Positions 1,644 to 25,075 of a DNA stretch of 64,000 bases are shown here, one piece after another (the first letter of the stretch is position 1; every line of letters begins with the position of its first letter). The position numbers were made by a program, and so were the translations under genes. The notes below the pieces were generated by a model, which ran no database searches, was not told the DNA's origin, and saw nothing but the letters and a program-made list of their open reading frames with translations. Origin of the DNA: Streptomyces sp. MUM 178J. GTDB lineage: Bacteria; Actinomycetota; Actinomycetes; Streptomycetales; Streptomycetaceae. Where the stretch lies: NCBI RefSeq assembly GCF_022414575.1, contig NZ_JADWYQ010000012.1, forward strand, positions 62,001 through 126,000, given 5' to 3'.

Positions 1644-1679
1644 GTTGCGCATAGCGATACTGTTTTTGTAATTCGCAAC
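1644..1679. promoter_or_regulatory. 36-bp tandem IclR-type operator, copy 1
   Basis: Two 17-base half-sites, two bases apart, in head-to-head orientation. Left half: GTTGCGCATAGCGATAC. Right half read on the other strand: GTTGCGAATTACAAAAA. It lies 40 bases before the formate-dehydrogenase-like start and 208 bases before the divergent esterase. The same 36-bp architecture recurs nine more times in the first 25 kb. Confidence 0.75.
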
Positions 1680-1719
1680 GAGTGCTCTGATTTTCCTACA
1701 CTGCGGAGTAGCGCTGCCG

Positions 1720-4020
1720 ATGACTCGTAAGCCACCTGCCGAGGACCCCGGCGACGCCCGTCTGCGGGTCGGCCCGCCGAAGGAGTACGCCGCCGGCATT
1801 CCCGCGGTCACCTCCTCGCTGCGGCATGCCGGCGAGCAGATGGGGGTCCGCCGCAGTCTGCTCACTCTGCTCCGGGTGAATCAGAAGGAGGGCTTCGACT
1901 GTCCGGGCTGCGCCTGGCCCGAGCCGGACCACCGGCACAAGGCGGAGTTCTGCGAGAACGGGGCCAAGGCCGTGGCCGAGGAGGCCACCGTACGCCTGGT
2001 CACCCCGGACTTCTTCGCCGAGCACACCCTGGAGGAACTGCTCCCCCGCAGCGACTACTGGCTCGGGCAGCAGGGACGTCTCACCCACCCCATGTACCGG
2101 CCGGCCGGTGCCGACCGGTACCGGCCGATCTCCTGGGACGACGCGTTCGCCGTGATCGCGCGCGAACTCGCCGAGCTCGATCACCCCGACCAAGCCGCCT
2201 TCTACACCTCCGGGCGGGCCAGCAACGAGGCCGCGTTCGCCTATCAGCTCTTCGTCCGGATGTTCGGCACCAACAACCTGCCGGACTGCTCCAACATGTG
2301 CCACGAATCCAGTGGCTCGGCCCTGGTCGAGACGATCGGCATCGGCAAGGGCAGCGTCAGCCTCGAGGACCTCTACGAGGCCGACCTGATCCTCGTCGTC
2401 GGCCAGAACCCCGGCACCAACCACCCCCGCATGCTCTCCGCGCTGGAGGAGGCCAAGCGGCGCGGCGCCCGCGTCATCGCGGTCAACCCCCTGCTCGAGG
2501 CCGGCCTGCTCCGGTTCAAGAACCCCCAGAAGCCCTCCGGCGTCATCGGCGGCGGCACCCAGCTCGCCGACCGATTCCTGCAGATCAGGCTCGGGGGCGA
2601 TCAGGCACTGTTCCAGGCCTTCAACCGGCTGCTGCTGGAGGCGGAGGACGACGATCCCGGCGCCGTCCTCGACACCTCCTTCATCACCGCGCACACGCAC
2701 GGCTTCGAGGAGTTCGCCGAGCAGGCCCGCAAGACCTCCTGGGCGGACATCCTGGAGGCCACCGGGCTGTCCGAGACCGAGATCAGGGCCGCGTTCCGGG
2801 AGATCCTCGCCGCCGAGAAGACCGTCGTCTGCTGGGCGATGGGCCTCACCCAGCACCGTCACTCCGTCCCGACCATCAGGGACGTCGTCAACTTCCTTCT
2901 CCTGCGCGGCAACATCGGCCGCCCCGGCGCGGGGCTCTGCCCGGTGCGCGGCCACTCCAACGTGCAGGGCGACCGGACCATGGGCGTCTACGAGAAGCCG
3001 AGCGAGGACTTCCTCGACGCGCTCGGCGCCGAGTTCGGCTTCGCACCGCCCCGCCCTCACGGTCACGACGCGGTCGAGACCATCCGCGCCATGCGGGACG
3101 GCGAGGTGAAGGTCTTCGTGGGACTGGGCGGCAACTTCGTCGCCGCCGCCCCGGACACCGAGGTGACGGAACAGGCGCTGCGCAACTGCCGGCTCACCGT
3201 GCAGATCTCCACCAAGCTCAACCGTTCCCACGTGGTCACCGGGGAAGAGGCGATCATCCTGCCCTGCCTGGGCCGCACCGAGGCCGATCTGAGGCCCTCG
3301 GGGCCCCAGTCGGTGACGGTGGAGGACTCTATGGGCATGGTTCACCTGTCGCGAGGACGGCTCGCCCCTGCCTCCGATCACCTCCTCAGCGAGGTGGCGA
3401 TCATCTGCGGCATGGCCCGGGCTGCGCTCGGGGCCCGCGAACCCCGTGTGCCCTGGGACGACTTCGCGGCCGACTACGATCGTATCCGCGACCGCATCGC
3501 TCGTGTGATCCCTGGCTTCGAGGACTTCAACGACCGGGTGCGACGACCAGGCGGCTTCGCCCTGCCCCACCCGCCCCGCGACGAGCGCCGCTTCACCACC
3601 GCCACCGGCCGGGCCAACTTCACCGCGAACCCGGTGGAGTTCCCACGCGTACCGGAAGGCCGCCTGCTGCTGCAGACCCTGCGCTCGCACGACCAGTACA
3701 ACACCACCATCTACGGACTGGACGACCGCTATCGCGGCATCCGCCGGGGACGCCGCGTGCTGTTCGTGCACCGGGACGACCTCGCCGCCCGCGGCCTGGC
3801 CGACGGCGACCTCGTCGACATCGTCAGCGAGTACGAGGACGGAGTGGAGCGCCGAGCACCGCGCTTCCGCACCGTCGCCTTCCCGACGCCCCGTGGCTGC
3901 TGCGCGGCGTACTTCCCGGAGACCAACGTCCTGGTGCCGCTGGACTCGACAGCAAAGACCAGCAACACCCCCACGTCCAAGTCCATCGTGGTCCGGCTGG
4001 AACCGGCTGCCGGGGTGTGA
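1720..4020 (+). CDS. FdhF/YdeP-family molybdopterin oxidoreductase (formate dehydrogenase-like)
   Basis: A 766-residue molybdopterin enzyme of the FdhF/YdeP family, probably oxidising formate to CO2. The N-terminus matches the family pattern, with EQMGVRRSLLTLLRVNQKEG and then CPGC at residues 61-64. The likely molybdenum-ligand loop reads NMCHESSG near residue 197, so the ligand would be cysteine, not selenocysteine. The rest covers the usual MopB and C-terminal molydopterin-dinucleotide-binding regions at normal length. The ATG at 1720 has only a weak GGAG 11 bases upstream. Formate is expected here from PurU and from mycothiol-dependent formaldehyde oxidation, and the sulfurtransferase FdhD is encoded at the far end of the same locus. 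The substrate is inferred; YdeP-type proteins are not all proven formate dehydrogenases. Confidence 0.85.
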   Translation: MTRKPPAEDPGDARLRVGPPKEYAAGIPAVTSSLRHAGEQMGVRRSLLTLLRVNQKEGFDCPGCAWPEPDHRHKAEFCENGAKAVAEEATVRLVTPDFFAEHTLEELLPRSDYWLGQQGRLTHPMYRPAGADRYRPISWDDAFAVIARELAELDHPDQAAFYTSGRASNEAAFAYQLFVRMFGTNNLPDCSNMCHESSGSALVETIGIGKGSVSLEDLYEADLILVVGQNPGTNHPRMLSALEEAKRRGARVIAVNPLLEAGLLRFKNPQKPSGVIGGGTQLADRFLQIRLGGDQALFQAFNRLLLEAEDDDPGAVLDTSFITAHTHGFEEFAEQARKTSWADILEATGLSETEIRAAFREILAAEKTVVCWAMGLTQHRHSVPTIRDVVNFLLLRGNIGRPGAGLCPVRGHSNVQGDRTMGVYEKPSEDFLDALGAEFGFAPPRPHGHDAVETIRAMRDGEVKVFVGLGGNFVAAAPDTEVTEQALRNCRLTVQISTKLNRSHVVTGEEAIILPCLGRTEADLRPSGPQSVTVEDSMGMVHLSRGRLAPASDHLLSEVAIICGMARAALGAREPRVPWDDFAADYDRIRDRIARVIPGFEDFNDRVRRPGGFALPHPPRDERRFTTATGRANFTANPVEFPRVPEGRLLLQTLRSHDQYNTTIYGLDDRYRGIRRGRRVLFVHRDDLAARGLADGDLVDIVSEYEDGVERRAPRFRTVAFPTPRGCCAAYFPETNVLVPLDSTAKTSNTPTSKSIVVRLEPAAGV

Positions 4021-4029
4021 ACAGAGGAA

Positions 4030-4069
4030 GGTCCGGGTGGCCGGCATGAAGACGCCGGCCACCCGGACC
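4030..4069 (+). terminator. Strong hairpin terminator after the formate-dehydrogenase-like gene
   Basis: A perfect 16-bp stem (GGTCCGGGTGGCCGGC at 4030-4045 with its complement at 4054-4069) around an 8-base loop, starting nine bases after the stop codon. Confidence 0.85.
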
Positions 4070-4090
4070 CGTTCTGTTGCCACCGGCGGC

Positions 4091-4186
4091 CGGGTGCCGC
4101 GCTTCGGCGCCGGCGCGGGCATCACCTGGGGCTCGGACCCCGGGCGCGAGTGGGACGAGACCGAACTCAAGGCGTCCCGGCTGCTC
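4091..4186 (+). pseudogene. C-terminal relic of a pabB-like chorismate-binding enzyme
   Basis: Translated rightward from 4100, the sequence reads RFGAGAGITWGSDPGREW and continues DETELKASRLL. This is the typical C-terminal signature of actinobacterial aminodeoxychorismate synthase component I (GITWxSDPxxEW then KAxRLL). Nothing of the rest of the gene precedes it. It ends abruptly at about 4186, where a piece of the opposite end of the same type of gene begins on the other strand. The family assignment is from memory of the family. Confidence 0.6.
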
Positions 4187-4406: not shown

Positions 4407-6131
<1,725 letters not shown>

Positions 6132-6207: not shown

Positions 6208-6243
6208 GTTGCGCAATGAGAAATAGTTCGCTGTTGGCGCAAC
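6208..6243. promoter_or_regulatory. 36-bp tandem operator, copy 2
   Basis: Half-sites GTTGCGCAATGAGAAAT and, on the other strand, GTTGCGCCAACAGCGAA, two bases apart. It is 77 bases upstream of the BCCT start. Confidence 0.7.
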
Positions 6244-6612: not shown

Positions 6613-6648
6613 GTTGCGGAACATGAGATATGTGCCGTAATAAGCAAC
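6613..6648. promoter_or_regulatory. 36-bp tandem operator, copy 3
   Basis: Half-sites GTTGCGGAACATGAGAT and, on the other strand, GTTGCTTATTACGGCAC, two bases apart. The outer arms GTGTTGC and GCAACAC make a longer inverted repeat. It ends 35 bases before the mscR start. Confidence 0.75.
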
Positions 6649-6683: not shown

Positions 6684-7769
6684 ATGACGCACCAGGTCCG
6701 TGCCGTCGTCGCGCGGGGCAAGGGCGCCCCCGTCAGCCTGGAAACGATCATCGTGCCCGACCCGGGTCCGGGTGAGGCGCTGGTGAAGATCGAGGCCTGC
6801 GGGGTCTGCCACACCGATCTGCACTATCGCGAGGGCGGCATCAACGACGACTTCCCCTTCCTGCTGGGCCATGAGGCCGCGGGCATCGTGGAGTCGGTGG
6901 GGGAGGGGGTCACCGACGTCGCGCCCGGCGACTTCGTGATCCTAAACTGGCGTGCGGTGTGCGGCCAGTGTCGTGCCTGTCAGCGCGGAGAGCCCTGGTA
7001 CTGCTTCAGCACCCACAATGCCAAGCAGAAGATGACCTTGCTGGACGGCGCCGAGCTCTCGCCGGCGCTGGGCATCGGAGCGTTCGCGGAGAAGACGCTC
7101 GTCGCGGCCGGGCAGTGCACCAAGGTCGACCCGACCGCGTCGGCGGCCGCCGCCGGTCTGCTCGGGTGCGGCGTGATGGCGGGCATCGGCGCGGCCATCA
7201 ACACCGGCAGCGTCGGCCGCGGTGACTCCGTCGCCGTCATCGGCTGTGGCGGGGTCGGGGCCGCGGCGATCGCCGGGGCGAACCTGGCGGGCGCGGCCAA
7301 GGTCATCGCGGTCGACATCGACGACCGCAAGCTGGAGACCGCCAGGAATCTGGGCGCGACCCACACCGTCAACTCCAAGGACGCCGACGCCGTCGAGGCG
7401 ATCCGCGAGCTGACCGGCGGCTTCGGCGCCGACGTCGTCATCGAGGCGGTCGGCCGCCCCGAGACATACGAGCAGGCCTTCTACGCCCGCGACCTCGCCG
7501 GCACGGTCGTCCTGGTCGGAGTGCCGACCCCGGAGATGAAGCTGGAGCTGCCGCTGCTGGACGTCTTCGGCCGGGGTGGCTCCCTGAAGTCATCCTGGTA
7601 CGGCGACTGCCTGCCGTCGCGCGACTTCCCGATGCTCATCGACCTCTATCTCCAGGGCCGGCTGGACCTGGACGCCTTCGTCACCGAGACCATCGCGCTG
7701 GACGAGGTCGAGAAGGCCTTCGAACGGATGCACCACGGCGATGTGCTGCGCTCGGTGGTGGTCCTCTGA
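6684..7769 (+). CDS. mscR: S-(hydroxymethyl)mycothiol dehydrogenase
   Basis: A 361-residue class III zinc alcohol dehydrogenase that oxidises the formaldehyde-mycothiol adduct with NAD to S-formylmycothiol. The catalytic zinc motif CGVCHTDLH is at residues 39-47 and GHEAAG follows. The structural zinc lobe [15 protein letters not shown] and the nucleotide fold [12 protein letters not shown] are present. The ATG at 6684 follows GAGGAG by five bases; an earlier ATG at 6630 has none. It overlaps the next gene by one base (TGATG), so the two are translationally coupled. The operator just upstream and the neighbouring Rieske oxygenase suggest it removes formaldehyde released by N-demethylation. 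Confidence 0.92.
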
Positions 7770-8398
7770 TGGCCGCCCGTATCGAGCACCTCGTCACCTC
7801 GGGCACGTTCTCGCTGGACGGCGGCACCTGGGACGTCGACAACAACGTGTGGATCGTCGGCGACGACTTTGAGGCGATCGTCATCGATGCCGCGCATGAC
7901 GCCGGGGCGATCGCCAGGGCCGTCGGCGGGCGCACCCTCAGGGCCATCGTGTGCACGCACGCGCACAACGACCACATCGACGCCGCGCCCGAACTCGCGG
8001 CGCGCACGGGTGCCCCGGTCCTCCTCCACCCGGACGACCTGCCGCTGTGGAAGCAGACCCATCCCGACAAGGAGCCGGACGCCGAATTGACCGACGGCCA
8101 GGGCATCACGGTGGCCGGCGTCGAGCTGACGGTGCTGCACACGCCCGGCCACGCCCCCGGCGCGGTCTGTCTGTACGCGCCGGCGCTGACGGCGCTCTTC
8201 AGCGGCGACACGCTGTTTGCCGGCGGGCCGGGGGCGACGGGGAGGTCGTACAGCCACTTCCCGACCATCGTCGAGTCGATCAGGGACCGGCTGCTGACGC
8301 TGCCGGGAGACACCGTCGTGCACACCGGACACGGGGAGACGACCACCGTCGCCACCGAGGCCCCGCACCTCCAGGAGTGGATCGACCGCGGTTTCTGA
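7769..8398 (+). CDS. Metallo-beta-lactamase-fold hydrolase, probable S-formylmycothiol hydrolase
   Basis: A 209-residue MBL-fold enzyme with the metal-binding motif THAHNDHID (residues 63-71) and the downstream histidines in HTPGHAPG and HTGHGE, plus the bridging aspartate in FSGDTLF. It is a glyoxalase-II-like size. The start overlaps the mscR stop. In mycobacteria a similar MBL gene also follows mscR, so hydrolysis of S-formylmycothiol to formate is the likely role, although this is inferred from context and not seen in the sequence. Confidence 0.85.
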   Translation: MAARIEHLVTSGTFSLDGGTWDVDNNVWIVGDDFEAIVIDAAHDAGAIARAVGGRTLRAIVCTHAHNDHIDAAPELAARTGAPVLLHPDDLPLWKQTHPDKEPDAELTDGQGITVAGVELTVLHTPGHAPGAVCLYAPALTALFSGDTLFAGGPGATGRSYSHFPTIVESIRDRLLTLPGDTVVHTGHGETTTVATEAPHLQEWIDRGF

Positions 8399-8467
8399 CG
8401 CCCACAGGAGACCCTCACACGCCCGCCCTCGGCTCGCGGCCATCGCGAGCCGATGTGGCGGGCTGTT

Positions 8468-8503
8468 GTTGTCCTATGCGAATTAGGTTCTGCATGGCGC
8501 AAC
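8468..8503. promoter_or_regulatory. 36-bp tandem operator, copy 4 (distal site of the ferredoxin promoter)
   Basis: Half-sites GTTGTCCTATGCGAATT and, on the other strand, GTTGCGCCATGCAGAAC, two bases apart. It lies 66 bases upstream of copy 5, so this promoter has two full operators. Confidence 0.6.
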
Positions 8504-8569
8504 GCAAGGAATGGCTCACGGCGCCCTCTGAACGCCTTGACACGGGGTTCCGGGCAACCTCAAACTGGC

Positions 8570-8605
8570 GTTGCGCTTACCGCAATCAGTTTCGTTATAC
8601 GCACC
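8570..8605. promoter_or_regulatory. 36-bp tandem operator, copy 5 (proximal site)
   Basis: Half-sites GTTGCGCTTACCGCAAT and, on the other strand, GGTGCGTATAACGAAAC, two bases apart. It ends nine bases before the ferredoxin start and touches its ribosome binding site, so a bound protein would block initiation. Confidence 0.75.
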
Positions 8606-8614
8606 GAGGTGGTC

Positions 8615-8977
8615 ATGATGATTCCCGCGTGTCCTCTGGCGGATCTGCCGCGAGGAGAGGCCTTCCGGCTCGAGACCGACCCGGCGGTCACGGTGTTCCA
8701 CACCGAGGACGGCGAGCTCTTCGCCATCGACGACACGTGCACCCACCAGGACGCTTCGCTCGCCGACGGCTGGGTGGAGGACTGCTGGGTGGAATGCCCG
8801 CTGCACGCCTCGAAGTTCAACCTCAAGACCGGTGAGGTCGACGCCCCGCCGGCCAAGCTTCCGGTCCGGACCCACGAGGTCGTCGTCGAGAACGGCATGG
8901 TCTACGTCAAGCTGTCCACGGCCGCCCCCAACCTGCCGCACTGCGCCGTGCGCAAGCTCGCCGGGATCTCCGCGTGA
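8615..8977 (+). CDS. Rieske [2Fe-2S] ferredoxin of an oxygenase system
   Basis: A 120-residue Rieske-type ferredoxin passing electrons from a flavoprotein reductase to the terminal oxygenase. The cluster ligands are C42 and H44 in CTHQD and C61 and H64 in CPLHASKFN. The length suits bacterial dioxygenase ferredoxins. GAGG upstream serves either of two adjacent ATGs (8615 or 8618); the second has the better spacing. The stop overlaps the reductase GTG start by four bases, so the electron-transfer pair is coupled. The terminal oxygenase is encoded from its own promoter 1.3 kb downstream. Confidence 0.9.
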   Translation: MMIPACPLADLPRGEAFRLETDPAVTVFHTEDGELFAIDDTCTHQDASLADGWVEDCWVECPLHASKFNLKTGEVDAPPAKLPVRTHEVVVENGMVYVKLSTAAPNLPHCAVRKLAGISA

Positions 8978-10137
8978 GGACGGTGGCCGTGGTGGGCGCC
9001 TCGCTGGCCGGACTGTCGGCCGCGCGCTCACTGCGGAAGCAGGGCTACGACGGGCGGCTGGTGGTCATCGGAGACGAGCTCCACCGCCCGTACGACCGGC
9101 CCCCGCTGTCCAAGGAGTTCCTGGCCGGCGCCGTCGGCGAAGCCGACCTCGCGCTGGAGATGGACGACGAGGACCTGCAGGCGGAGTGGCTGCTCGGCGC
9201 CCGCGCCACCGGACTCGACCCCACCCACCGCGCCGTCCGCCTCGACGACGGCCGGGAGGTCCGCGCCGACGGCGTCGTCATCGCGACCGGCGCCGCCCCG
9301 CGCACCCTGCCCGGCTCCGAGGGCCTGGCCGGAGTGCACGTCGTGCGCACCCTGGACGACGCCTGCGGGCTACGGGACGAACTGGCCCGCGGCGGACGGC
9401 TGGTGGTGATCGGCGGCGGATTCATCGGCGCCGAGGTCGCCTCCACCGCCTACGCCCTCGGGCTCGATGTGACGGTGGTCGAGGCGGCCCCGACGCCGCT
9501 CGCCGGACCGCTCGGCGAGACCATGGGCGCCGTGGTCTCCGCCCTCCACGCCGACCACGGCGTACGGCTGGAGTGCGGCGTGGGCGTCAAGGGGCTGAGC
9601 GGGGAGACCCGGGTGGACGCCGCTCTGCTGGAGGACGGCCGCAGCATCCCCGCCGACATCGTCGTGGTCGGCGTGGGCGCACGCCCCTGCGTCGAGTGGC
9701 TGGAGGGATCCGGCATCGAGCTCGACAACGGCGTCAAGTGCGGTGCGGACGGCCGCACCAGCCTGGCCGGTGTGGTCGCGGTCGGTGACTGCGCCAACTG
9801 GTACGACCCTCGTACGGGCGCCCATCGCCGCGTGGAACACTGGACCGGTGCGCGCGAGCGCCCCGACGCCGCGATCGCCACGCTGCTGGCGGGCGGCGCC
9901 GTGGAACCGGGTGTGCCCCGGCCGCCGTACTTCTGGTCGGACCAGTACGGCGTGAAGATCCAGTTCGTCGGCCATGCGGCCGGCGCCGACAGCGTGACGA
10001 TCGAGGAAGGCTCCGCGGACGACCGCAACGTCCTCGCCGTCTACCGGCGTGCCGGTGAGCCCGTCGCCGCACTCGGAATGAACCAGCCGCGGCTGTTCAC
10101 CCGCTGGCGCAAGCAGCTCGCCCGCCCCACATCTTGA
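8974..10137 (+). CDS. FAD-dependent NAD(P)H-ferredoxin reductase, copy 1
   Basis: A 387-residue flavoprotein of the BphA4/putidaredoxin reductase type. It has an N-terminal FAD fold (VVGASLAGLSAARSLRKQGYDG), a central NAD fold (VVIGGGFIGAEVASTAYALGL) and the FAD-aspartate segment VVAVGDCANW. The C-terminal dimer domain carries PYFWSDQYGVKIQ. It starts with GTG inside the ferredoxin stop. It should reduce the Rieske ferredoxin next to it. A close paralogue is encoded at 25096-26277 without a ferredoxin partner. Confidence 0.9.
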   Translation: MRTVAVVGASLAGLSAARSLRKQGYDGRLVVIGDELHRPYDRPPLSKEFLAGAVGEADLALEMDDEDLQAEWLLGARATGLDPTHRAVRLDDGREVRADGVVIATGAAPRTLPGSEGLAGVHVVRTLDDACGLRDELARGGRLVVIGGGFIGAEVASTAYALGLDVTVVEAAPTPLAGPLGETMGAVVSALHADHGVRLECGVGVKGLSGETRVDAALLEDGRSIPADIVVVGVGARPCVEWLEGSGIELDNGVKCGADGRTSLAGVVAVGDCANWYDPRTGAHRRVEHWTGARERPDAAIATLLAGGAVEPGVPRPPYFWSDQYGVKIQFVGHAAGADSVTIEEGSADDRNVLAVYRRAGEPVAALGMNQPRLFTRWRKQLARPTS

Positions 10138-10165: not shown

Positions 10166-10201
10166 GTTGCACATGGCGCGCAGTATTGCCTTATACGCAA
10201 C
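10166..10201. promoter_or_regulatory. 36-bp tandem operator, copy 6
   Basis: Half-sites GTTGCACATGGCGCGCA and, on the other strand, GTTGCGTATAAGGCAAT, two bases apart. It lies between the reductase stop and the oxygenase start (65 bases upstream of the GTG), so the oxygenase has its own regulated promoter. Confidence 0.75.
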
Positions 10202-10266: not shown

Positions 10267-11397
10267 GTGACCTCGACCAGCCTGCCGGACAGCCTGATCG
10301 CCACCCTCCCCGGCTCCTTCTACACCGATCCCGGGATCTTCGCCCAGGAGCAGGAGCACATTTTTGAGTCCATGTGGTTCTGCGTCGCGCGCTCGTCGGA
10401 CCTGGCGAAGCCCGGCGCCTTCCGGACCGTCGATGTCGGTCGCGAGAGCATCCTCGTCACGCGGGCCCGCGACAACTCGATCCGCGCCTACTTCAACATC
10501 TGCCGACACCGCGGCGCCAGGCTCTGCATGGAGGAGACCGGCGAGGTCAAGCGGGGTTTCCAGTGCCCGTACCACGCCTGGACCTACGGCTTGGACGGCA
10601 AGCTCGTCGCGGCGCCCAACCTCACCAAGATGCCCGACATCGGCCGCAACGAGTACGGCCTGGTCGGCGTGGCCACCCGCGAATGGCTCGGCTATGTCTG
10701 GGTGTGCCTTGCGGAGAACCCCCCTCCCTTCGAGGAGGCCGTCATCGGCGACGTTGTCGCGCGGCTGGGCGACGCCGAGTCGATCGAGCGCTACGGCATC
10801 GAGAACCTCTCGGTCGGCAAGCGGATCGTCTACGACGTGAAGGCAAACTGGAAGCTCATCATCGAGAACTTCATGGAGTGCTACCACTGCGCCACGATCC
10901 ACCCCGAACTCACCGAGGTGCTGCCGGAGTTCGCGGACGGCTTCGCCGCCCAGTACTACGTCGGCCACGGCGCCGAGTTCGGCGAGGAGGTCCAGGGCTT
11001 CACCGTCGACGGCTCCGAGGGTCTGGACCGCATTCCGGGTGTCGCCGAGGATCAGGACCGCCGCTACTACGCCATCACCGTCCGGCCGCAGGTCTTCATC
11101 AACCTCGTGCCCGACCACGTCATCTACCACCGCATGTTCCCGATGGCCGAGGACCGCACGATCGTGGAGTGCGACTGGCTGTACCTGCCGCACGTTGTGG
11201 ACAGCGGCAAGGACGTCAGCCGGTCCGTGGAGCTCTTCCACCGGGTCAACCAGCAGGACTTCGACGCCTGCGAGCGCACCCAGCCCGCGATGAACTCCCG
11301 GATGTACGCCAAGGGCGGTGTCCTGGTGCCCAGCGAGCACCACATCGGCGCCTTCCACGACTGGGTGCACGAGCGACTGGGCACCCACCAGCAGTAG
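10267..11397 (+). CDS. Rieske non-haem iron oxygenase alpha subunit, glycine-betaine demethylase type
   Basis: A 376-residue ring-hydroxylating-type oxygenase. Rieske ligands are C79/H81 (NICRHRG) and C100/H103 (CPYHAWTYG). The mononuclear iron site follows in NFMECYHCATIHPEL. The sequence fits the GbcA / stachydrine-demethylase branch of the family, which acts on quaternary amines and not on aromatics. The expected reaction is glycine betaine plus O2 to dimethylglycine plus formaldehyde. The GTG at 10267 follows GAGGAG by six bases and is preferred to an ATG at 10186 that has no such site. BCCT importer, dimethylglycine dehydrogenase and formaldehyde dehydrogenase neighbours support the substrate. 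Proline betaine or carnitine cannot be excluded. Confidence 0.85.
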   Translation: MTSTSLPDSLIATLPGSFYTDPGIFAQEQEHIFESMWFCVARSSDLAKPGAFRTVDVGRESILVTRARDNSIRAYFNICRHRGARLCMEETGEVKRGFQCPYHAWTYGLDGKLVAAPNLTKMPDIGRNEYGLVGVATREWLGYVWVCLAENPPPFEEAVIGDVVARLGDAESIERYGIENLSVGKRIVYDVKANWKLIIENFMECYHCATIHPELTEVLPEFADGFAAQYYVGHGAEFGEEVQGFTVDGSEGLDRIPGVAEDQDRRYYAITVRPQVFINLVPDHVIYHRMFPMAEDRTIVECDWLYLPHVVDSGKDVSRSVELFHRVNQQDFDACERTQPAMNSRMYAKGGVLVPSEHHIGAFHDWVHERLGTHQQ

Positions 11398-11410: not shown

Positions 11411-12208
11411 TCAGCCCAGGTAACCTATCCGATGGCTGATCTCCTCCGCGCCCTTGACGAGCACCGGAGCGAGCTCGTGCAGGCGCTCCTCGGTGAGCCG
11501 GTACGAAGGCCCGGACGCGCTCACCGCCGCGACGATCTCTCCGTCTCGATTGCGGATGGGGGCGGCGATGGCGTGCAGACCGAGCTCCAGTTCCTCCATG
11601 GCCCAGGCGTAGCCACGCTCCCGGATCTCGGTGAGGTTCCTCTCGAGCTTCGTCTTCGCGGTGATGGTGTGCGAGGTGACCTTCTTCATCCCGGACTGGG
11701 CCATCAGCGCGGCACGCTCCTTGGCGGGCAGATGGGCCAGCAGGACCTTGCCGCTCGAGGTGGCGTGCAACGGGGTCAGCTGGCCGACCCAGTTCTGGGC
11801 GGTGATGGCTCCCGGGCCGCGCACCTGGTAGAGGTTGACCGCGTAGTGCTCCCGCAGTACGGCGATGTTGACAGTCTCGCCGATCTCCTCGGCGAGGTCC
11901 TCGCAGACCGGGCGGCCCTGCTGGGTGATGTCGATGCGCGCCGTGGCCGCACCGGCCAGGCGCACGATGCCGAAGCCCAGCCGGTACTTGCCGCGCTCGC
12001 CCGCCTGCTCGACCAGGCCGCGCGACTCCAGGGCGCCGAGCAGGCGGAACGCGGTGGACTTGTGAACATCAATCTCGCCCGCCACCTCGCTGACGCCCGC
12101 CTCGCCGCGGTGGGCCAGGATCTCCAGGACGCTGATGGCTCGGTCCACCGACTGTACTCCGCCGGTGTGAGAATTTGAGGTTTCGGTTTCAAGGTTGTAG
12201 TTGCTCAC
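11411..12208 (-). CDS. IclR-family regulator, copy 1
   Basis: A 265-residue regulator: winged helix-turn-helix at about residues 18-85 (VDRAISVLEILAHRGEAGVS, recognition helix VHKSTAFRLLGALE), then the IclR effector domain to the end (HATSSGKVLLAHLPAKERAA; ISHRIGYLG at the terminus). It is convergent with the oxygenase, 13 bases from its stop. It is a close duplicate of the regulator at 22927-23724 with the same recognition helix. The 36-bp operator at 12200-12235 overlaps its start codon, so autorepression is likely. The effector is probably a pathway intermediate such as betaine, dimethylglycine or sarcosine. Confidence 0.9.
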   Translation of the reverse strand: MSNYNLETETSNSHTGGVQSVDRAISVLEILAHRGEAGVSEVAGEIDVHKSTAFRLLGALESRGLVEQAGERGKYRLGFGIVRLAGAATARIDITQQGRPVCEDLAEEIGETVNIAVLREHYAVNLYQVRGPGAITAQNWVGQLTPLHATSSGKVLLAHLPAKERAALMAQSGMKKVTSHTITAKTKLERNLTEIRERGYAWAMEELELGLHAIAAPIRNRDGEIVAAVSASGPSYRLTEERLHELAPVLVKGAEEISHRIGYLG

Positions 12209-12235
12209 AACGCAACTATACCCACAGTAAACAAC
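12200..12235. promoter_or_regulatory. 36-bp tandem operator, copy 7, over the start of iclR copy 1
   Basis: The half-site GTTGCTCACAACGCAAC is nearly a perfect palindrome; the second half, on the other strand, is GTTGTTTACTGTGGGTA. It covers the start codon of the regulator. Confidence 0.7.
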
Positions 12236-12274: not shown

Positions 12275-12310
12275 GTTGCGCCTTCCGCAACTTGGTGCGT
12301 ATGACGCTAC
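12275..12310. promoter_or_regulatory. 36-bp tandem operator, copy 8, with a perfect palindromic half
   Basis: The first half GTTGCGCCTTCCGCAAC sits in a perfect 8-bp inverted repeat (AAGTTGCG / CGCAACTT, 12273-12293). The second half is GGTGCGTATGACGCTAC at 12294-12310. It now points at a gene relic. Confidence 0.75.
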
Positions 12311-12440: not shown

Positions 12441-12443
12441 GAA

Positions 12444-12564: not shown

Positions 12565-12587
12565 CTGATATATTTGAGGTATGTCAG
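12565..12587. promoter_or_regulatory. Possible GntR autoregulatory site
   Basis: CTGATATA and TATGTCAG form an imperfect inverted repeat at the upstream edge of the GntR gene. The left arm matches the AACTGATATAC motif found twice between the dehydrogenase and folD genes. Confidence 0.45.
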
Positions 12588-12640
12588 AGTCGAAGGTGCT
12601 GATGTCACCAGTCCCGCGTGAAGGAAGAGGCGGCCGAAAG

Positions 12641-13396: not shown

Positions 13397-13920
13397 TCAG
13401 AGGTCGAAGAGGCCCTTCGGCTTCTCCGGGGCTTCGCGCTGCTCCGGTGCGGCCTCGGCCTTCGGTTCGGGCCGGGCCACCGGCTCCGCCGCCGACTGAG
13501 CACCGGGGGCGGCTGGCTCCTCCTCGACGTCGAAGAGGGAGCCTGACGGCGTGGGCGTTGCGGTGGTCGCGGGCGCCGGCGCCTCGTCGGCCGGGACGTC
13601 GAAGAGCGAGCCGCCCGTGGCGGCTGGTGCGGGGGGCGTCTGGGTGGCGGGCGTGTCGAATAGTGAGCTGCTGGACGGTGTGGCTTCGGTGGGTGCCTCG
13701 TCGAAGAGCGAGACGCTTGTGGTGGCTGGCGCGGGGGGCGGCTCGGCAGCGGGTGCGTCGAACAGTGAGCCGCCGGAGGCCGGCTTCGCGGGCGCCTGTG
13801 CGGGAGTCTCATCGAACAGTGAGGCGTTTGTGGTGGCTGGAGTGGTCGGTTCGGCTGTGGGTTGGTCGAACAGTGAGCCGCCGGAGGTCGGCCTTGCGGG
13901 CGCTTCGTCGAACAGCGACG
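13397..13920 (-). repeat. Coding repeats: nine SLFD-type motifs in a disordered tail
   Basis: The tail of the Fe-S protein repeats a short block, for example TSLFDEAPA, GSLFDQPTAEP, ASLFDETPA, GSLFDAPAAEP, VSLFDEAPT, SSLFDTPA, GSLFDVPADEAP and GSLFDVEEEP, and ends in KGLFDL. Spacers are 10-25 residues rich in Pro, Ala and Thr. The DNA repeats are visible as recurring GTCGAA(C/G)AG(T/C)GAG on the plus strand. Confidence 0.85.
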
Positions 13921-16177: not shown

Positions 16178-16417
16178 CAAGGGCTCCTCAGGGACGGTCT
16201 TCTGGCCGGGGGAGTGGCGGAGCCTTGTGCGCCGGCCGGCAAAGCTGCATATGGGTGCGGATCCGTGGGTGCGGATCCGGCCTTCCCACGGTGGAGGGAG
16301 TGGAGGAGGCTGCGGCATCCCCTGCGGGCGCCGCAGCCTCGCTCCAGGGCGGTGAGCTGCCTCGCGGGGTCAGAGCCCGTCTGCGGGTGAGTCACTCAGC
16401 AGCCGTCACTCACGGCT

Positions 16418-17407: not shown

Positions 17408-18174
17408 CGGGTCACCCCCAGCTTTGCGAACAGGTCGGCGACCGCGCCGGCCGCCTCCGGGCCCTCGCCCAGCACCTCGACCGTCGACGGCGCGGGCGGG
17501 GGCAGCAGCAGCCGCACCCGGCTGGCTCCGGCGGGCTCGGCCGACAGGGCCCGGGTCTCGATCTCGACCTTCTTGGCTGCCATCCGGCCCTTCAGCGTCG
17601 GATAGCGCGGCTCCACCCCGCCCTCCAGCAGGGTGGCGACCGCGGGCAGCGGCAGCGAGTAGGTCTCCTCGCCGTCGGGGCCGTCGCCCCGTGCGGTCAG
17701 GTGGCCGTCGGCCACCTCGACCGTCGACACGCCGTTGACCACCGGCCGGCCGAGCGCGTGGGCCAGCCGGATGCCCACCTGGAAGTCGCCGCTGTCGGCG
17801 GCGTCGTTGCCGAGCAGGATCAGGTCGTACGTCGTGCCCGAGGCGTCCTTCTCGCGCACGACGTGGGCGATCTCCCGGGCCACGTCGGCCGGTCCCAGCC
17901 CGGTCGGCTCCGCCTCCACCAGTACGGCGGCGTGGCAGCCGAGTGCCAGCGTGTCCCGCAGTTGCTCGGTGGCCTCGGACGGGCCGACGGTCAGCAGCGT
18001 GACCGTACCGCCGGTCGCCTCGGCGGTCCGGACCGCCAGCTCGACCGCACAGCTCTCGTGGTTGCTCACGGTGAAGCCGACGTACCTCCCGTCGACACCC
18101 TGCTGGTCGTCGGTGAGCAGGACCTCACCGGAGGAGTCAGGGACCCGCTTGATGCAGACCAATACGTTCGTCAT
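17404..18174 (-). CDS. etfB: Electron transfer flavoprotein, beta subunit
   Basis: A 256-residue EtfB starting MTNVLVCIKRVPDSSGEV. The nucleotide-binding segment is LLGNDAADSGDFQVGIRLAH, and the recognition-loop region ends in RYPTLKGRMAAKKVEIE, all typical of the family. It starts 49 bases after the dehydrogenase stop and overlaps etfA. The dedicated Etf pair beside a Gcv-T-type dehydrogenase indicates a dehydrogenase, not an O2-using oxidase, route for the methyl group. Confidence 0.93.
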   Translation of the reverse strand: MTNVLVCIKRVPDSSGEVLLTDDQQGVDGRYVGFTVSNHESCAVELAVRTAEATGGTVTLLTVGPSEATEQLRDTLALGCHAAVLVEAEPTGLGPADVAREIAHVVREKDASGTTYDLILLGNDAADSGDFQVGIRLAHALGRPVVNGVSTVEVADGHLTARGDGPDGEETYSLPLPAVATLLEGGVEPRYPTLKGRMAAKKVEIETRALSAEPAGASRVRLLLPPPAPSTVEVLGEGPEAAGAVADLFAKLGVTR

Positions 18175-18223
18175 CGTTCACCTCTTGTGGTCTCGACAGG
18201 CCCGACCGCTGACACCACCGCCA

Positions 18224-20728
18224 TCAGCGGATCCGCTCGTTGTCCGGGTCGAAGGGGGGCGTGGCGTCGTTGGTGAGCACGGTCACGGGGTAGAGCTCCT
18301 CCATGTAGGAGACCGCGAGTTCGTTGCCGACCCGCGCCTGCTCGGGCGGCAGGTAAGCCATCAGCAGGTGCTTGCCCAGCGAGGGGGCCGAGCCGGCGGC
18401 GGTGACATAGGGGTGGTGCCCGTGCCCGTCGACGAGCGCCTCGCCGGAGCGGGTGAGGATCGGCTCGCCGCCGAGCATGTACCGCTTCACCCCGGACGCC
18501 GACGTGTGGTCGTCGACGGCCAGCGTGCACAGCACTGCCGCGGGCTCCCCCGCGCGCTGGTCGAGGTAGGCCTCCTTGCCGATGAAGTCGGCGCCCTTCA
18601 CCTTCGGCCGCTGCATGCCCGCCTCGACGATGGTGCGCTCGGCGTCGAGTTCGTGGCCGAAGGCCCGGTAGCCCTTCTCGATCCGCGCGGTGGTCACGTA
18701 GACGCCGATCCCGACCGGGCGGGCGCCGTACGGCGCGCCCGCCGCGAGCAGCTTGTCCCACACTGCCGCGGCCTGGTCGAAGGAGACGTACAGCTCCCAG
18801 CCGAGCTCGCCGACGTAGGAGATCCGGGAGGCCAGCACGGGAATGCCGTCGAGGTCGATCTCGCGGCAGTTGAGGAACTTGAAGCCCTCGTGGGACACGT
18901 CCGCGTCGGTGAGCTGCGACAGGATGTCGCGGGCCCGAGGGCCCCACAGCCCGATCGTGGAGATCCGGTCGGTGAGGTCCTCGATGAACGCGTCGTCGCC
19001 GAGCTGGTCGGCGAACCACTTCTTGTCCGCCATGCCGTGCGCGCCGCCGGTGACGACCCGGAATTGGTCCTCTCCCAGGCGCATGACGGTGAGGTCGGAG
19101 ACGAACCCGCCCTTGCGGTCGAGCACCGGGGTGTAGATCACCTTGCCGACCGGCACGTCGCACTGCGCGACGCAGGTGCGCTGGACGGCGTCCAACGCGC
19201 CGGGACCGGTGATGTCGAACATCGCGAAGGCGGTCAGGTCGATGACGCCCGCAGCCTCGCGCATCCGCAGGTGCTCGGCGTTGGTGATCGGACTCCACCA
19301 GCGCGCGTCCCACTCGTGCTCGCGCGGCAACACGTGGTCGCCGTACACCTCAAGGAGGTCGGCGTTGGACTCGTACCACTGCGGCCGCTCCCAGCCGACC
19401 GCCTCGAAGAAGACCGCACCGAGCTTCTTCTCCGACTCGTGCATCGGGGAGAGCCGCTGCCCGCGGTCGGACTCGTACTGCTCGGCGGGGTGGACGATCC
19501 CGTAGGTCTTGATGAACGACTCGGTGGTGCGCAGCCGGGTGTGCTCGCGACGCAACTGGTGGGGGTAGAAACGCGCGATGTCGCTGTGCGCGAGGTCGAT
19601 CTCGCTGTGGCCCTGGACCATCCACTCCGCGACCGCGCGTCCGACGCCCGGGCCCTCCTTGATCCACACCGCGGCCGCCGTCCACAGCCCCTTCACCTGG
19701 CTCTCACCGAGGATCGGGTTGCCGTCGCAGGTCAGCGACAGCAGGCCGTTGATCGCATACCGCATTTCCGCGCCCTCGGCGCCCAGCAACTCGGGCATCA
19801 GCTCGTAGGCCTGCTCAAGCTGCGGGTCGAAGTCTTCGGAGGTGAACGGCATCTCGGTGGGGCTGAGCTTGGACTGCTCGATGCTCGGGATGTCCTCCGG
19901 CTCGTGCAGGATCGCCCGGTGGGCGTAGGACCCCACCTCCATGTCCGCGCCGTGCTGGCGCTCGTAGCAGAAGGTGTCCATGTCCCGGACGATCGGGAAG
20001 TTGATCTCGCCGGGCAGCCCGGACAGCTGCGGGCAGGGGCCTACGGAGATCATCTGGTGAACGGCGGGGGTCAGCGGGATGCTGACGCCGGCCATGTCGC
20101 CGATCTTCGGGCTCCACACGCCACAGGCGATCACTACGTACTCGGCCTCGATGTCGCCCTTGTTCGTGCGCACCCGGCGGATCCGCCCGTCCTCGACGTC
20201 CAGGCCGACCACCTCGACGTTGGGCACGCTCGTCAGCGCGCCGCTCGCGATGGCGCCGTCACGCATGATCGTGCCGGCGCGCAGGGAGTCGACCACGCCG
20301 ACGCTCGGCGTCCAGAAGGCCCCGATGAACTGGTCTTCCTCGATGAACGGCACCTTCTCCTTGACAAAGGCGGGGTCGACCAGCTCCGACTCGATGCCCC
20401 AGGCCTTGGCGCTGGACATGCGGCGGCGCAGCTCCTCCATGCGCTCCTCGGTACGCGCGATCTCGAAGCCGCCGGACTCGGTGAAGACACCCAGCTCCTT
20501 GTACTGCCGCATCGAGTCCAGTGTCAGATCGGTGATCTCGCGGGAGTGGTCCACAGGAAAGATGAAGTTGGAGGCGTGACCTGTCGAGCCACCGGGGTTG
20601 GGCAGCGGGCCCTTGTCGATCTGCACGATGTCGCGCCAGCCCAGCCGGGCCAGGTGATGGACCAGGCTGTTGCCGACGATGCCGGACCCGATCACGACGC
20701 ATTTCGCCTGCGGCGGAACCTCTGCCAT
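18224..20728 (-). CDS. Dimethylglycine/sarcosine dehydrogenase (FAD oxidoreductase plus GcvT domain)
   Basis: An 834-residue two-part enzyme. Residues about 1-400 form a DAO-type FAD domain (CVVIGSGIVGNSLVHHLARL; GSTGHASNF, whose histidine is in the place of the covalent-flavin histidine of dimethylglycine oxidase). Residues about 430-834 are a GcvT-like tetrahydrofolate domain. It removes an N-methyl group and passes it to folate as 5,10-methylene-THF. AAGGAGG precedes the ATG at 20728; an ATG at 20755 lacks a site. It heads the etfB-etfA-Fe-S protein set and is divergent from folD, which consumes its folate product. Whether it takes dimethylglycine, sarcosine or both is not decided by sequence. 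Confidence 0.88.
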   Translation of the reverse strand: MAEVPPQAKCVVIGSGIVGNSLVHHLARLGWRDIVQIDKGPLPNPGGSTGHASNFIFPVDHSREITDLTLDSMRQYKELGVFTESGGFEIARTEERMEELRRRMSSAKAWGIESELVDPAFVKEKVPFIEEDQFIGAFWTPSVGVVDSLRAGTIMRDGAIASGALTSVPNVEVVGLDVEDGRIRRVRTNKGDIEAEYVVIACGVWSPKIGDMAGVSIPLTPAVHQMISVGPCPQLSGLPGEINFPIVRDMDTFCYERQHGADMEVGSYAHRAILHEPEDIPSIEQSKLSPTEMPFTSEDFDPQLEQAYELMPELLGAEGAEMRYAINGLLSLTCDGNPILGESQVKGLWTAAAVWIKEGPGVGRAVAEWMVQGHSEIDLAHSDIARFYPHQLRREHTRLRTTESFIKTYGIVHPAEQYESDRGQRLSPMHESEKKLGAVFFEAVGWERPQWYESNADLLEVYGDHVLPREHEWDARWWSPITNAEHLRMREAAGVIDLTAFAMFDITGPGALDAVQRTCVAQCDVPVGKVIYTPVLDRKGGFVSDLTVMRLGEDQFRVVTGGAHGMADKKWFADQLGDDAFIEDLTDRISTIGLWGPRARDILSQLTDADVSHEGFKFLNCREIDLDGIPVLASRISYVGELGWELYVSFDQAAAVWDKLLAAGAPYGARPVGIGVYVTTARIEKGYRAFGHELDAERTIVEAGMQRPKVKGADFIGKEAYLDQRAGEPAAVLCTLAVDDHTSASGVKRYMLGGEPILTRSGEALVDGHGHHPYVTAAGSAPSLGKHLLMAYLPPEQARVGNELAVSYMEELYPVTVLTNDATPPFDPDNERIR

Positions 20729-20750
20729 GGCTGCCTCCTTCGAGGTGACA

Positions 20751-20772
20751 CGCAACTGATATACTAGTTGCG
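20751..20772. promoter_or_regulatory. Inverted-repeat operator in the dehydrogenase promoter
   Basis: CGCAACT and AGTTGCG form a 7-bp inverted repeat enclosing GATATACT. The inner 15 bases AACTGATATACTAGT (20754-20768) recur inverted at 20891. It lies 23 bases upstream of the dehydrogenase start. Confidence 0.65.
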
Positions 20773-20890
20773 AGCACGCTATATGGCAGTGGGGTGGCGG
20801 TCAAGGGGGTCGCATTGCTCAAGCGACTTTTGCGTGCCGGCAAGGACACTCGCTGATCCTTGACAAGGTCTGATCTATCAAGCTTCAATG

Positions 20891-22916: not shown

Positions 22917-22933
22917 GGGCCCCGGCTCAGCCC
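22910..22933. terminator. Short hairpin over the convergent stops of folP and iclR copy 2
   Basis: GGGCTGAG and CTCAGCCC form an 8-bp stem with an 8-base loop that includes both stop regions. It is a compact bidirectional terminator candidate. Confidence 0.55.
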
Positions 22934-23724
22934 AGATAGCCCATCCGGCGGCTGACCTCCTCCGCACCCCTGATCAGCGCGGGCCCGAGTCCGTGGATGC
23001 GCTCCTCGGTGAAGCGGTACGTGGGGCCGGAGGCACTGAGGGCGGCGATGACGTCGCCGTCTCGGGAGCGGATCGGGGCCGCCATGGCGTGCAGTCCGAT
23101 CTCGAGTTCCTCCAGCGCCACCGCGTACCCGCGCTCCCGCGCCTCGGCGAGGTTCTTCTCCAGCTTCGTCCTGGCGATCAGGGTGTGCGGCGTGAGCTTC
23201 TGCGTCCCCGACGCCGCGAGCACGTCGGTGCGCTCCTCCTCCGGCAGGTGGGCCAGCAGGATCTTGCCGCTCGACGTGGCGTGCACCGGCGTGAGCTTCC
23301 CGATCCAGTTGTGCGTGCCCACCGCGCCCGGGCCGCGTACCTGGTAGAGGTTGACCGCGTAGTGCTCCTGCAGGACCGCGATGTTGACCGTCTCGCCGAT
23401 CTCCTCGCTGAGCCGCTCGCACACCGGCCGGCTCTGCTGGGTGATGTCGAGACGACCGGTGACCGCGCCGGCGAGGCGCACGATCCCGAAGCCGAGCCGG
23501 TACTTGCCCCGCTCGGCCGTCTGCTCGACCAGACCGCGCGCCTCCAGCGCCCCGAGCAGACGGAACGCGGTCGACTTGTGGACGTCGAGCTCCGCGGCCA
23601 CCTCGCTGACACCCGCCTCGCCGCGCTGGGCCAGGATCTCCAGGACGCTCACGGCACGGTCGACGGACTGCACCCCGCTCGGCGCGGGGCCTGCTGTTTC
23701 GCCATCTGCAATGTGGTTGCCCAT
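22927..23724 (-). CDS. IclR-family regulator, copy 2
   Basis: A 265-residue IclR regulator nearly collinear with copy 1 at 11411-12208. The winged helix (VDRAVSVLEILAQRGEAGVS) and recognition helix VHKSTAFRLLGALE are shared. The effector domain has HATSSGKILLAHLPEEERTD and differs modestly from copy 1. It ends SRRMGYLG. Its start codon lies inside a single 17-bp half-site (23716-23732), so it probably represses itself. With both copies recognising the same DNA, they may respond to different ligands or form mixed oligomers. Confidence 0.9.
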   Translation of the reverse strand: MGNHIADGETAGPAPSGVQSVDRAVSVLEILAQRGEAGVSEVAAELDVHKSTAFRLLGALEARGLVEQTAERGKYRLGFGIVRLAGAVTGRLDITQQSRPVCERLSEEIGETVNIAVLQEHYAVNLYQVRGPGAVGTHNWIGKLTPVHATSSGKILLAHLPEEERTDVLAASGTQKLTPHTLIARTKLEKNLAEARERGYAVALEELEIGLHAMAAPIRSRDGDVIAALSASGPTYRFTEERIHGLGPALIRGAEEVSRRMGYLG

Positions 23725-23732
23725 AGCGCAAC
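23716..23732. promoter_or_regulatory. Single 17-bp half-operator over the start of iclR copy 2
   Basis: GTTGCCCATAGCGCAAC, with only one mismatch to a palindrome of GTTGCG and CGCAAC. No second half is found two bases to either side. Confidence 0.65.
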
Positions 23733-23844
23733 TGTACGCGATCGTGGTGTGCGGCGAGGGGTGTCACGGTGACTGGACAGGGTGCCAGTCGGGCACTTGG
23801 GAGCGGCTGTGTCTGCGTCTTCGCACAGTAAGGTCGGCCGTTCG

Positions 23845-24717
23845 TCAGCGGAAGACCACTGTGCAGTTCCCGTTCACGAGTACACGGTTCTGGCTGTGCC
23901 ACTCCACGGCACGGGCGAGTACCTGGGCCTCGACGTCGCGGCCGATGGTGACCAGCTCGTCAGGGGCGCGCGAGTGGTCCACGCGCACAACGTCCTGCTC
24001 GATGATCGGGCCTTCGTCGAGGTCGGGCGTGACGTAGTGCGCCGTGGCCCCGACGAGCTTCACCCCGCGCCGGTGTGCCTGGACGTACGGCCGGGCCCCC
24101 TTGAAGCTCGGCAGGAAGGAGTGGTGGATGTTGATGGCCCGGCCGTCGAGCTGCTTGCACAGGTCGTCGGAGAGGATCTGCATATAGCGGGCCAGTACCA
24201 CCAGGTCGATGTTCAGCTCGTCCACGAGCTCCAGCAGCCGTGCCTCGGCCTCCGCCTTGGTCTCCTTGGTCACCGGGATGTGGTGGAAGGGGATGCCGTA
24301 GCTCTGCGCCAGTGCCTCGAATTGGCGGTGGTTGGAGACGATCGCGGGGATCTCGATGTTGAGCGCGCCTGTGGACTTGCGGAAGAGCAGGTCGTTCAGG
24401 CAGTGGCCGAACTTCGACACCATGATCAGTGTGCGCGTCGGGGTCGAGGCGTCGTGCAGTTGCCAGTTGATCCCGTACGTCTGGCTGACCGGGCCGAAAC
24501 CAGTGCGCAGGTCCTGCAGCGAGACGCCGGGATCCGAGACGTCGAAGTGCATCCGCATGAAGAAGCGGTCCTGCAGTCGGTCGTCGAACTGCCGACTCTC
24601 CAGGATGTTGCCGGAGTGGTCCACGAGAAAGCTGGTCACGGCGTGGACGAGGCCGGCCTGGTCGGGGCACGACAGGGTGAGGACGAACTCGCTGCCGGGC
24701 TGCGGTCGAGGAGACAT
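23845..24717 (-). CDS. purU: Formyltetrahydrofolate deformylase
   Basis: A 290-residue PurU hydrolysing 10-formyl-THF to THF and formate. An N-terminal ACT domain (residues about 8-85, FVLTLSCPDQAGLVHAVTSF) is followed by the formyltransferase fold with RYMQILS, INIHHSFLPSFKGARPYVQA and the catalytic aspartate segment ATAHYVTPDLDEGPIIEQD. The ATG at 24717 follows GGAGG by five bases. With the dehydrogenase and FolD it completes methyl group to formate, which releases free THF. A 36-bp operator lies 20 bases upstream. Confidence 0.93.
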   Translation of the reverse strand: MSPRPQPGSEFVLTLSCPDQAGLVHAVTSFLVDHSGNILESRQFDDRLQDRFFMRMHFDVSDPGVSLQDLRTGFGPVSQTYGINWQLHDASTPTRTLIMVSKFGHCLNDLLFRKSTGALNIEIPAIVSNHRQFEALAQSYGIPFHHIPVTKETKAEAEARLLELVDELNIDLVVLARYMQILSDDLCKQLDGRAINIHHSFLPSFKGARPYVQAHRRGVKLVGATAHYVTPDLDEGPIIEQDVVRVDHSRAPDELVTIGRDVEAQVLARAVEWHSQNRVLVNGNCTVVFR

Positions 24718-24736
24718 GCCATCCTCCGTCGTCACT

Positions 24737-24772
24737 GGTGCGTATTGCGAAACATAATGAGCGATACGCAAC
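24737..24772. promoter_or_regulatory. 36-bp tandem operator, copy 9, purU promoter
   Basis: On the minus strand the first half is GTTGCGTATCGCTCATT; on the plus strand the other half is GGTGCGTATTGCGAAAC; they are two bases apart. It ends 20 bases before the purU start. Confidence 0.75.
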
Positions 24773-24955
24773 ATGCTCCACTGCGGACGACCGGGCGGTC
24801 AAGAGGTGATGTGCAGCGGGCCGGCGCGCCTTTCGGCGGGCTGAGGGGTTCGCTCGACCGGCGACGACGGCTTGGACGTGCTTGCGGCCCTCACTGCGCT
24901 TTTGGGGTGAGCCGGCGCCGTGACCGTGGGCGCCCGGACTCCCCGGTCTGCGAAT

Positions 24956-24972
24956 GTTGCGAATCGCGCAAC
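24956..24972. promoter_or_regulatory. Single perfect half-operator between purU and reductase copy 2
   Basis: GTTGCGAATCGCGCAAC, extended to a perfect 21-bp palindrome (24954-24974, arms ATGTTGCG and CGCAACAT). It is 140 bases upstream of the reductase and is the most symmetrical copy in the window. Confidence 0.7.
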
Positions 24973-25039
24973 ATCGAGCATCATAAGAAGTTGATATGCG
25001 CCGCCTCCCTTGACATCGCCCGCGCCGCGTGGAAAGCAT

Positions 25040-25075
25040 GTTGCGTATAGCGATTGAAGTTGTGTTATGCGAGAC
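25040..25075. promoter_or_regulatory. 36-bp tandem operator, copy 10, reductase copy 2 promoter
   Basis: Half-sites GTTGCGTATAGCGATTG and, on the other strand, the weaker GTCTCGCATAACACAAC, two bases apart. It ends 20 bases before the reductase ATG. Confidence 0.7.

Follow-up and report, generated by a model that had tools for sequence, protein, structure and literature searches.

A tandem 36-bp element and its predicted IclR-type regulators at a putative betaine-demethylation locus of Streptomyces sp. MUM 178J

A stretch of 64,000 nucleotides from Streptomyces sp. MUM 178J (contig NZ_JADWYQ010000012.1, positions 62,001 to 126,000; hereafter the window) carries genes for a putative betaine-demethylation pathway, copies of a 36-bp element that is a candidate tandem operator, and genes for two IclR-family proteins (IclR1 and IclR2) that are its proposed regulators. 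The first gene, ydeP (1720..4020, plus strand), encodes an FdhF/YdeP-family molybdopterin oxidoreductase, probably for formate oxidation (TIGR01701, 999 bits against a cutoff of 582). It is followed by bcct (4407..6131, minus strand; PF02028, E 1e-190), encoding an importer of the betaine/choline type, with an assumed in-frame ATG at 6131 in an open frame that extends to 6872. On the plus strand, mscR, encoding S-(hydroxymethyl)mycothiol dehydrogenase (TIGR03451, 699 bits, cutoff 513), starts from an assumed in-frame ATG at 6684, and genes follow it for a metallo-beta-lactamase-fold protein (mbl, 7769-8398; PF00753), a Rieske ferredoxin (fdx, open frame 8453-8977, with an inferred in-frame ATG at 8615, after the operator; PF00355), ferredoxin reductase 1 (8974-10137; PF07992) and a GbcA-like Rieske oxygenase (gbcA, 10267..11397 from an inferred GTG at 10267, in an open frame from 10186).

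IclR1 is encoded on the minus strand (11411..12208), next to a GntR-FCD gene (12581-13312) and an operon for Fe-S, electron-transfer flavoprotein (ETF) and dimethylglycine-dehydrogenase-type proteins (DMGDH/ETF/DgcB, 13397-20755). The gene for IclR2 (22927..23724) and purU, encoding formyltetrahydrofolate deformylase (23845..24717, with an inferred in-frame ATG and an open frame to 24774; TIGR00655, 351 bits, cutoff 286), also lie on the minus strand. The plus-strand genes for reductase 2 (red2), GlyA (26300), L-serine ammonia-lyase (27616) and FdhD (29029) occupy 25096..29922 and, being co-directional with gaps of 18 to 56 bp, probably form one operon read from the red2 promoter. Pfam and NCBIfam models also identify FolD and dihydropteroate synthase in the locus.

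Betaine is degraded via glycine and serine to pyruvate, with disposal of formaldehyde and formate, and the gene set matches the logic of this pathway, the name betaine resting on gene context. The defining substrate might instead be another methylated amine, such as stachydrine, carnitine or choline, with betaine an intermediate at most. The oxygenase scores 222 bits with NF058607 (GbcA glycine betaine monooxygenase), below the curated cutoff of 670, which counts against betaine since the substrate could then be another quaternary amine. Its nearest solved structures are 4qup (a monooxygenase/demethylase), 3vca, 3n0q and carnitine monooxygenase 6y8j, and at least six of the species compared have two oxygenase loci (for example, L025/L088 and L075/L076 in our numbering of compared loci). 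Another amine is nevertheless unlikely to be the defining substrate, as the BCCT importer, MscR, the dimethylglycine-dehydrogenase-type enzyme, GlyA and serine ammonia-lyase together fit a route from betaine to glycine and on to pyruvate.

The initial annotation had placed ten tandem sites in the window, starting at 1644, 6208, 6613, 8468, 8570, 10166, 12200, 12275, 24737 and 25040, and single halves at 23716 and 24956; all coordinates, sequences and neighbouring genes proved exact. The claimed 36-bp spacing of the outer arms also holds, while the arms are not always GTTGCG and CGCAAC: both are exact at only two of the ten (1644 and 6208), with one mismatch or fewer in seven, two or fewer in nine and three at 12200 (GTTGCT...AACAAC). 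Each site had been described as a half-palindrome followed by the same half inverted. A second peak in arm spacing, at 17 bp (five matches, the maximum of the other spacings), indicates that each supposed half is a complete 17-bp palindrome, so that a site consists of two such palindromes with centres 19 bp apart. This was the arrangement at all ten sites, within the 18 to 22 nucleotides between centres that characterize tandem operators of the IclR family.

Chance was excluded as the source of the spacing, as had been claimed. Seven arm pairs with no more than one mismatch occur at 36 bp, whereas the 46 other spacings between 14 and 60 bp average 0.33 and 100 first-order Markov (Markov-1) simulations 0.30. 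A matrix trained outside the window, built to lessen circularity from 78 sites in the third-group Streptomyces loci described below and in other families (sites themselves detected with a window-trained matrix), placed the ten sites at ranks 1 to 10 in the 64 kb, with 40.8 to 26.6 bits. The site at 24956 ranked eleventh (24.0 bits) and every remaining position scored 13.1 bits or less. The reversed matrix reached at most 6.0 bits, and the maxima of 50 Markov-1 sequences averaged 7.3 bits (highest 21.0). Simple palindrome density was ruled out by the same controls.

Scored with this matrix, tandem operators precede ydeP (1644..1679, 40.8 bits, rank 1), bcct (6208..6243, 31.9 bits), mscR (6613..6648, 31.5 bits), fdx (8570..8605, 37.2 bits), gbcA (10166..10201, 35.3 bits), purU (24737..24772, 37.6 bits) and red2 (25040..25075, 34.9 bits). 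The operator at 12200..12235 (28.3 bits, with a weak second palindrome) covers a -10-like box and the start codon of iclR1. Three auxiliary operators lie further upstream of fdx (8468..8503, 26.6 bits), iclR1 (12275..12310, 30.5 bits) and red2 (24956..24991), with the main operator 102, 75 and 84 bp away, respectively. The last is a weak, degenerate tandem by its rank and not the single half first reported; it was absent from the whole-genome matches of a ten-site model up to E 10, and counterparts before red2 were found at L092:11244 and L082:14027 and also in L081. The palindrome at 23716-23732, likewise reported as a single half, does pair, weakly and at a 20-bp register, with 23696-23712 over the start of iclR2 (23696..23732; 3.7 bits as a 36-mer). 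The window therefore holds eleven tandems, one of them weak, and one poor pair at the 20-bp register.

Sites of at least 20 bits (n = 531, 416 distinct) were grouped into 60 clusters, in which the outer GTT is conserved in 94 to 98% and the inner AAC in 57 to 66%. This difference would suit two dimers with dominant outer contacts, and the site-finding procedure itself favours the outer arms.

The position of the operators relative to promoters is strict. TTGAC precedes the operator by 29 to 36 bp at each of the seven structural-gene promoters in the window (ydeP -36, bcct -29, mscR -31, fdx -33, gbcA -32, purU -30 and red2 -30, bcct and purU being read from the minus strand). Among the relatives, the gene-assigned set comprised 389 distinct sites (of 403 rows) with a score of at least 18 and 160 bp of upstream sequence. 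TTGAC starts 29 to 32 bp upstream in 159 of these and within 25 to 40 bp in 171, compared with 1.4 per 16 bp elsewhere. When either side was allowed, a TTGAC 28 to 33 bp away accompanied 272 of 449 distinct Streptomyces sites (0.83 per 6-bp window as background), all 14 distinct third-group sites and 27 of 62 distinct other-family sites. With a -35 box at that distance, the operator would run from about -4 to +32 and take in the last part of the -10 region and the start site, which is the position of a repressor.

At fdx, a TTGACA lies between the 8468 and 8570 sites, and in relatives the TTGAC of fdx lies about 70 bp inward from the upstream operator. Distances between operators in relatives peak at 74 to 76, 81 to 87, 101 to 103 and 142 to 145 bp, with the 74- to 76-bp spacing, as at iclR1, in 36 pairs. 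Palindromes overlap both the -10-like box (TATAGT or TACAGT) and the start codon of iclR1 and iclR2. On the minus strand, no more than about 7 bases appear to separate the -10-like box from the starts of iclR1 (12208) and iclR2 (23724); both genes may thus be transcribed without a leader, the operator lying over the start codon.

The same regulator and operators could act in activation, as BhcR does. BhcR (NF045644) is the closest NCBIfam model to IclR1 and IclR2 (205.6 and 196 bits, below the curated cutoff of 350), and in Paracoccus it activates the gene cluster under its control (PMC11323563), a point that speaks against repression; the auxiliary operators upstream of three promoters would also suit an activator. 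However, at all seven structural promoters and in many relatives, the main operators extend from just past the -10 region over the start site, where a bound protein would block polymerase, and the -35 boxes are near consensus. Activation is accordingly improbable, and repression remains the preferred mode of action.

IclR1 and IclR2 are 73% identical and belong to the IclR family by PF01614 (155.7 and 145.7 bits, cutoff 24) and PF09339 (53.8 and 57 bits, cutoff 22). Compared with the ligand site of E. coli IclR, as described in PMC11323563, IclR1 keeps the two ligand-contacting serines (239 and 241) and lacks Asp212, so glyoxylate is not an obvious ligand. Asp212 is replaced in the 46 ungapped regulators from operator-bearing regions (Ala in 17, Thr in 14, Ser in eight, Val in five and Cys in two), and Trp stands in place of Pro149 in all 46. 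A betaine-like carboxylate as ligand is a guess. Calling the ligand from pocket residues gives a hint at most, as this Trp is also found in eight of nine sequences from regions without an operator.

The association of the motif with this locus was examined in the whole 6.63-Mb genome, using a sequence-only covariance model of the ten sites on both strands and scoring 150 of 268 first-look candidates. All ten sites were recovered; of the other places scored, none reached E 2.4 and only one came within E 10 (C38:25105, at E 4.5). The motif is therefore not equally common away from these genes. C38:25105 was rejected as a member of the regulon. Its gene, encoding a BhcC-like protein (84 bits against a cutoff of 690), is present in 79 of 81 Streptomyces genomes, and the site pair has a 21-bp register in all of the best 30 of these 79 loci, 11 of them regulator-positive and 19 regulator-negative. 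A near-universal gene and a 21-bp register with or without the present regulator make control by another regulator likelier, and this tandem is probably the operator of another IclR-type protein. The element there (G000:C38:25105-25139, in L195 and L196, and in L197-L225) is a different tandem, often NNAGCGATATACGCAAT followed by 4 bp and GTTGCAN5TGCAAC. The single 17-bp palindrome was discarded as a genome-wide predictor: its 11 places (one mismatch or fewer), five of them in this locus, are outnumbered by the 23 of the backward control.

In 150 Streptomyces genomes, IclR1 relatives (E ≤ 1e-80) were present in 77 and the motif (E ≤ 0.5) in 59. Every one of the 59 is regulator-positive, and the motif is found in 34 of 35 genomes with the closer IclR type and in none of the 73 regulator-negative genomes (Fisher P = 9e-26, uncorrected for kinship). 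Among the matches listed, 77 distinct motif places were compared with IclR matches: 74 have one on the same contig no more than 30 kb away, and three are on other contigs. Co-occurrence thus argues strongly for a link between the motif and this IclR regulator.

With a GntR-FCD gene inside the locus and nine further IclR homologues in the genome (24 to 36% identity), the operators might be bound by the GntR protein or by another IclR, leaving IclR1 and IclR2 as bystanders. This is very improbable: the motif is missing from all 73 regulator-negative genomes, some loci with IclR (such as L122-L128, L174 and L183) have operators while gntR gives no match at E ≤ 1e-15, and palindromes cover the starts of iclR1 and iclR2 themselves. 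Moreover, a tandem 17-bp palindrome of the GTT-11-AAC type is the pattern of the IclR family, as set out in the main text of PMC8222616.

Operators were also sought at loci of related bacteria. The best 80 of at least 592 oxygenase loci all contain at least one site of 20 bits or more, with 452 sites in total. Distinct pairs of 17-mers number 267 at register 19, six at 18 and 13 at 20 (those at 7 and 26 are overlap artefacts), and 490 positions reach 14 bits as 36-mers, compared with 10 for the reversed matrix. The sites precede mscR, fdx, gbcA, iclR, purU, dmgdh-type genes, ydeP, bcct, red2 and some copies of dhps and sda; in these 80 loci, mbl (45 copies), folD (13), glyA (11), fdhD (4), gntR (2) and dgcB (1) had no site assigned to them. 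In L054, an ABC importer recognized by its ABC_tran and BPD_transp_1 domains has a site in front of it; of the 80 loci, 20 carry site sequences like this one, L054 alone being annotated. A third group of IclR proteins (56 to 61% identical) lies in compact loci with their own red/fdx/mscR/dmgdh/gbcA cluster, and operators are present in seven of its eight regions. The eighth (L129) has an IclR gene, no match to other pathway genes and no operator. Outside the genus, 40 of 51 matches were considered, and 28 of these regions from other families contain a 36-mer of at least 20 bits. In all four regions of family f19 and two of five of family f4, the pairs stand at register 18, with none at 19; such palindromes are found at L180:15499/15517, L182:10824/10842, L188:19636/19654, L191:1100/1118, L192:19032/19050 and L194:18994/19012.

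Further features of the window were noted. The DMGDH encoded at 13397-20755 is 59 to 61% identical to that of f19 loci (L188, L191, L192 and L194), while the dmgdh matches of the compared Streptomyces loci are only 23 to 38% identical to it; perhaps the DMGDH of this ETF-linked operon was acquired separately and the GntR gene (12581) along with it. Outward-facing half-sites, CGCAAC-N11-GTTGCG, are found where the operon has its promoter end (20751-20773) and may be a variant site or chance. An oxygenase copy adjoins reductase 2 and iclR2 in L073, L077, L081, L082, L088-L090 and L092, and none does so in the window (22927-29922), so the second locus may have lost its oxygenase.

Taken together, the 36-bp element is likely to be a double operator through which the IclR paralogs (11411-12208 and 22927-23724) repress a betaine-demethylation regulon, judging from sequence; the observation made in the initial annotation is real and its interpretation largely right. 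One IclR dimer would bind each 17-bp palindrome, and the 19-bp spacing between centres would let two dimers form the tetramer usual in the family. The operator follows the beginning of the -35 box by about 30 bp, so that the bound regulator would, without inducer, cover the transcription start and block RNA polymerase. Repression could be tightened, possibly through looping, by the auxiliary operators located upstream of the promoters of fdx, red2 and iclR1. The inducer would be a compound of the pathway, most likely glycine betaine or dimethylglycine, binding to the C-terminal domain of IclR and causing release of the tetramer. Release would then allow import, N-demethylation, mycothiol-dependent disposal of formaldehyde, production and oxidation of formate, and conversion of glycine to serine and pyruvate.

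Several observations weigh against this reading or its generality. The recognition helix HKST, present in all 46 ungapped regulators from operator-bearing regions, does not discriminate because it is also found in eight of nine regulators from regions without operators. The DMGDH/ETF/DgcB operon has no standard site, although its enzymes are expected to belong to the pathway. Taken alone, 17-bp palindromes show no genome-wide enrichment over the backward control, and TTGAC at the fixed distance was not seen at iclR1 or at the upstream operators, in the window or in relatives. Helical phasing of main and auxiliary operators was unconvincing, since the distances are not all whole helical turns. 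In 18 of the 77 regulator-positive Streptomyces genomes there is no motif match at E ≤ 0.5 under stricter filters. Twelve of the 40 other-family regions lack a 36-mer of at least 20 bits: five of f17, which have few or no pathway matches, four of f4 and three of f19. In f4, L184, L186 and L187 possess pathway genes, yet have no 18- or 19-bp pair.

A broader proposal, about as likely as not, is that control of the demethylation of methylated amines (betaine) by an IclR regulator extends across the actinobacterial class and predates the split of its families. Each lineage would keep the double operator at one register (18 bp in f19 and part of f4, 19 bp in most of the families examined) and at a constant distance behind the promoter, and some promoters would be flanked by auxiliary operators. 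For Streptomyces, the present work provides a concrete candidate operator and regulator for betaine use, and the motif flags likely further members of the regulon from sequence alone, such as the ABC importer of L054. The fixed distance between promoter and operator and the difference between 18- and 19-bp registers bear on how two IclR dimers sit on DNA. If the proposal is true, duplication of the locus, where present, may allow mixed tetramers of the two paralogs.

The GbdR regulon of Pseudomonas includes betaine demethylation genes, among them that for a GbcA-type oxygenase, and GbdR is an activator of the AraC family, not an IclR protein. If the class-wide proposal holds, the IclR regulator would be a main switch of betaine catabolism in actinobacteria, distinct from the AraC-type GbdR system. 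A search of the literature, covering titles and abstract openings among the matches listed, gave no operator or regulator for betaine use in Streptomyces.

In 94 of the 181 orthologous groups treated in the main text of Suvorova and Gelfand (2021, PMC8222616), IclR palindromes stand in tandem, their centres separated by 18 to 22 nucleotides, an arrangement explained there by tetramer binding. The operator described here agrees with the GTT-11-AAC subgroup of group 1 in that study (consensus GTTYCRYW3RYGRAAC) in length, in the GTT and AAC ends and in the centre. It differs in the 60 site clusters by G at position 4 (76%) rather than Y and C at position 14 (60%) rather than R. The targets also differ, as the genes here are of betaine type and the word betaine does not occur in that main text, to which the comparison was confined. 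E. coli IclR and Paracoccus denitrificans BhcR share the IclR_C effector domain with IclR1 and IclR2, and in the account of PMC11323563 the tetramer is their DNA-binding form, as is proposed for IclR1 and IclR2. TtgV of Pseudomonas putida (2xrn/2xro) is also of the IclR family and binds DNA as a tetramer (main text of PMC8222616); unlike IclR1 and IclR2, it regulates an efflux pump, and the similarity is only 64.7 bits. Because tandem IclR sites have already been described (PMC8222616), the design of the operator is of a known kind; it is the breadth across the class and the strict placement relative to promoter sequences that raise the interest of this type of control element.

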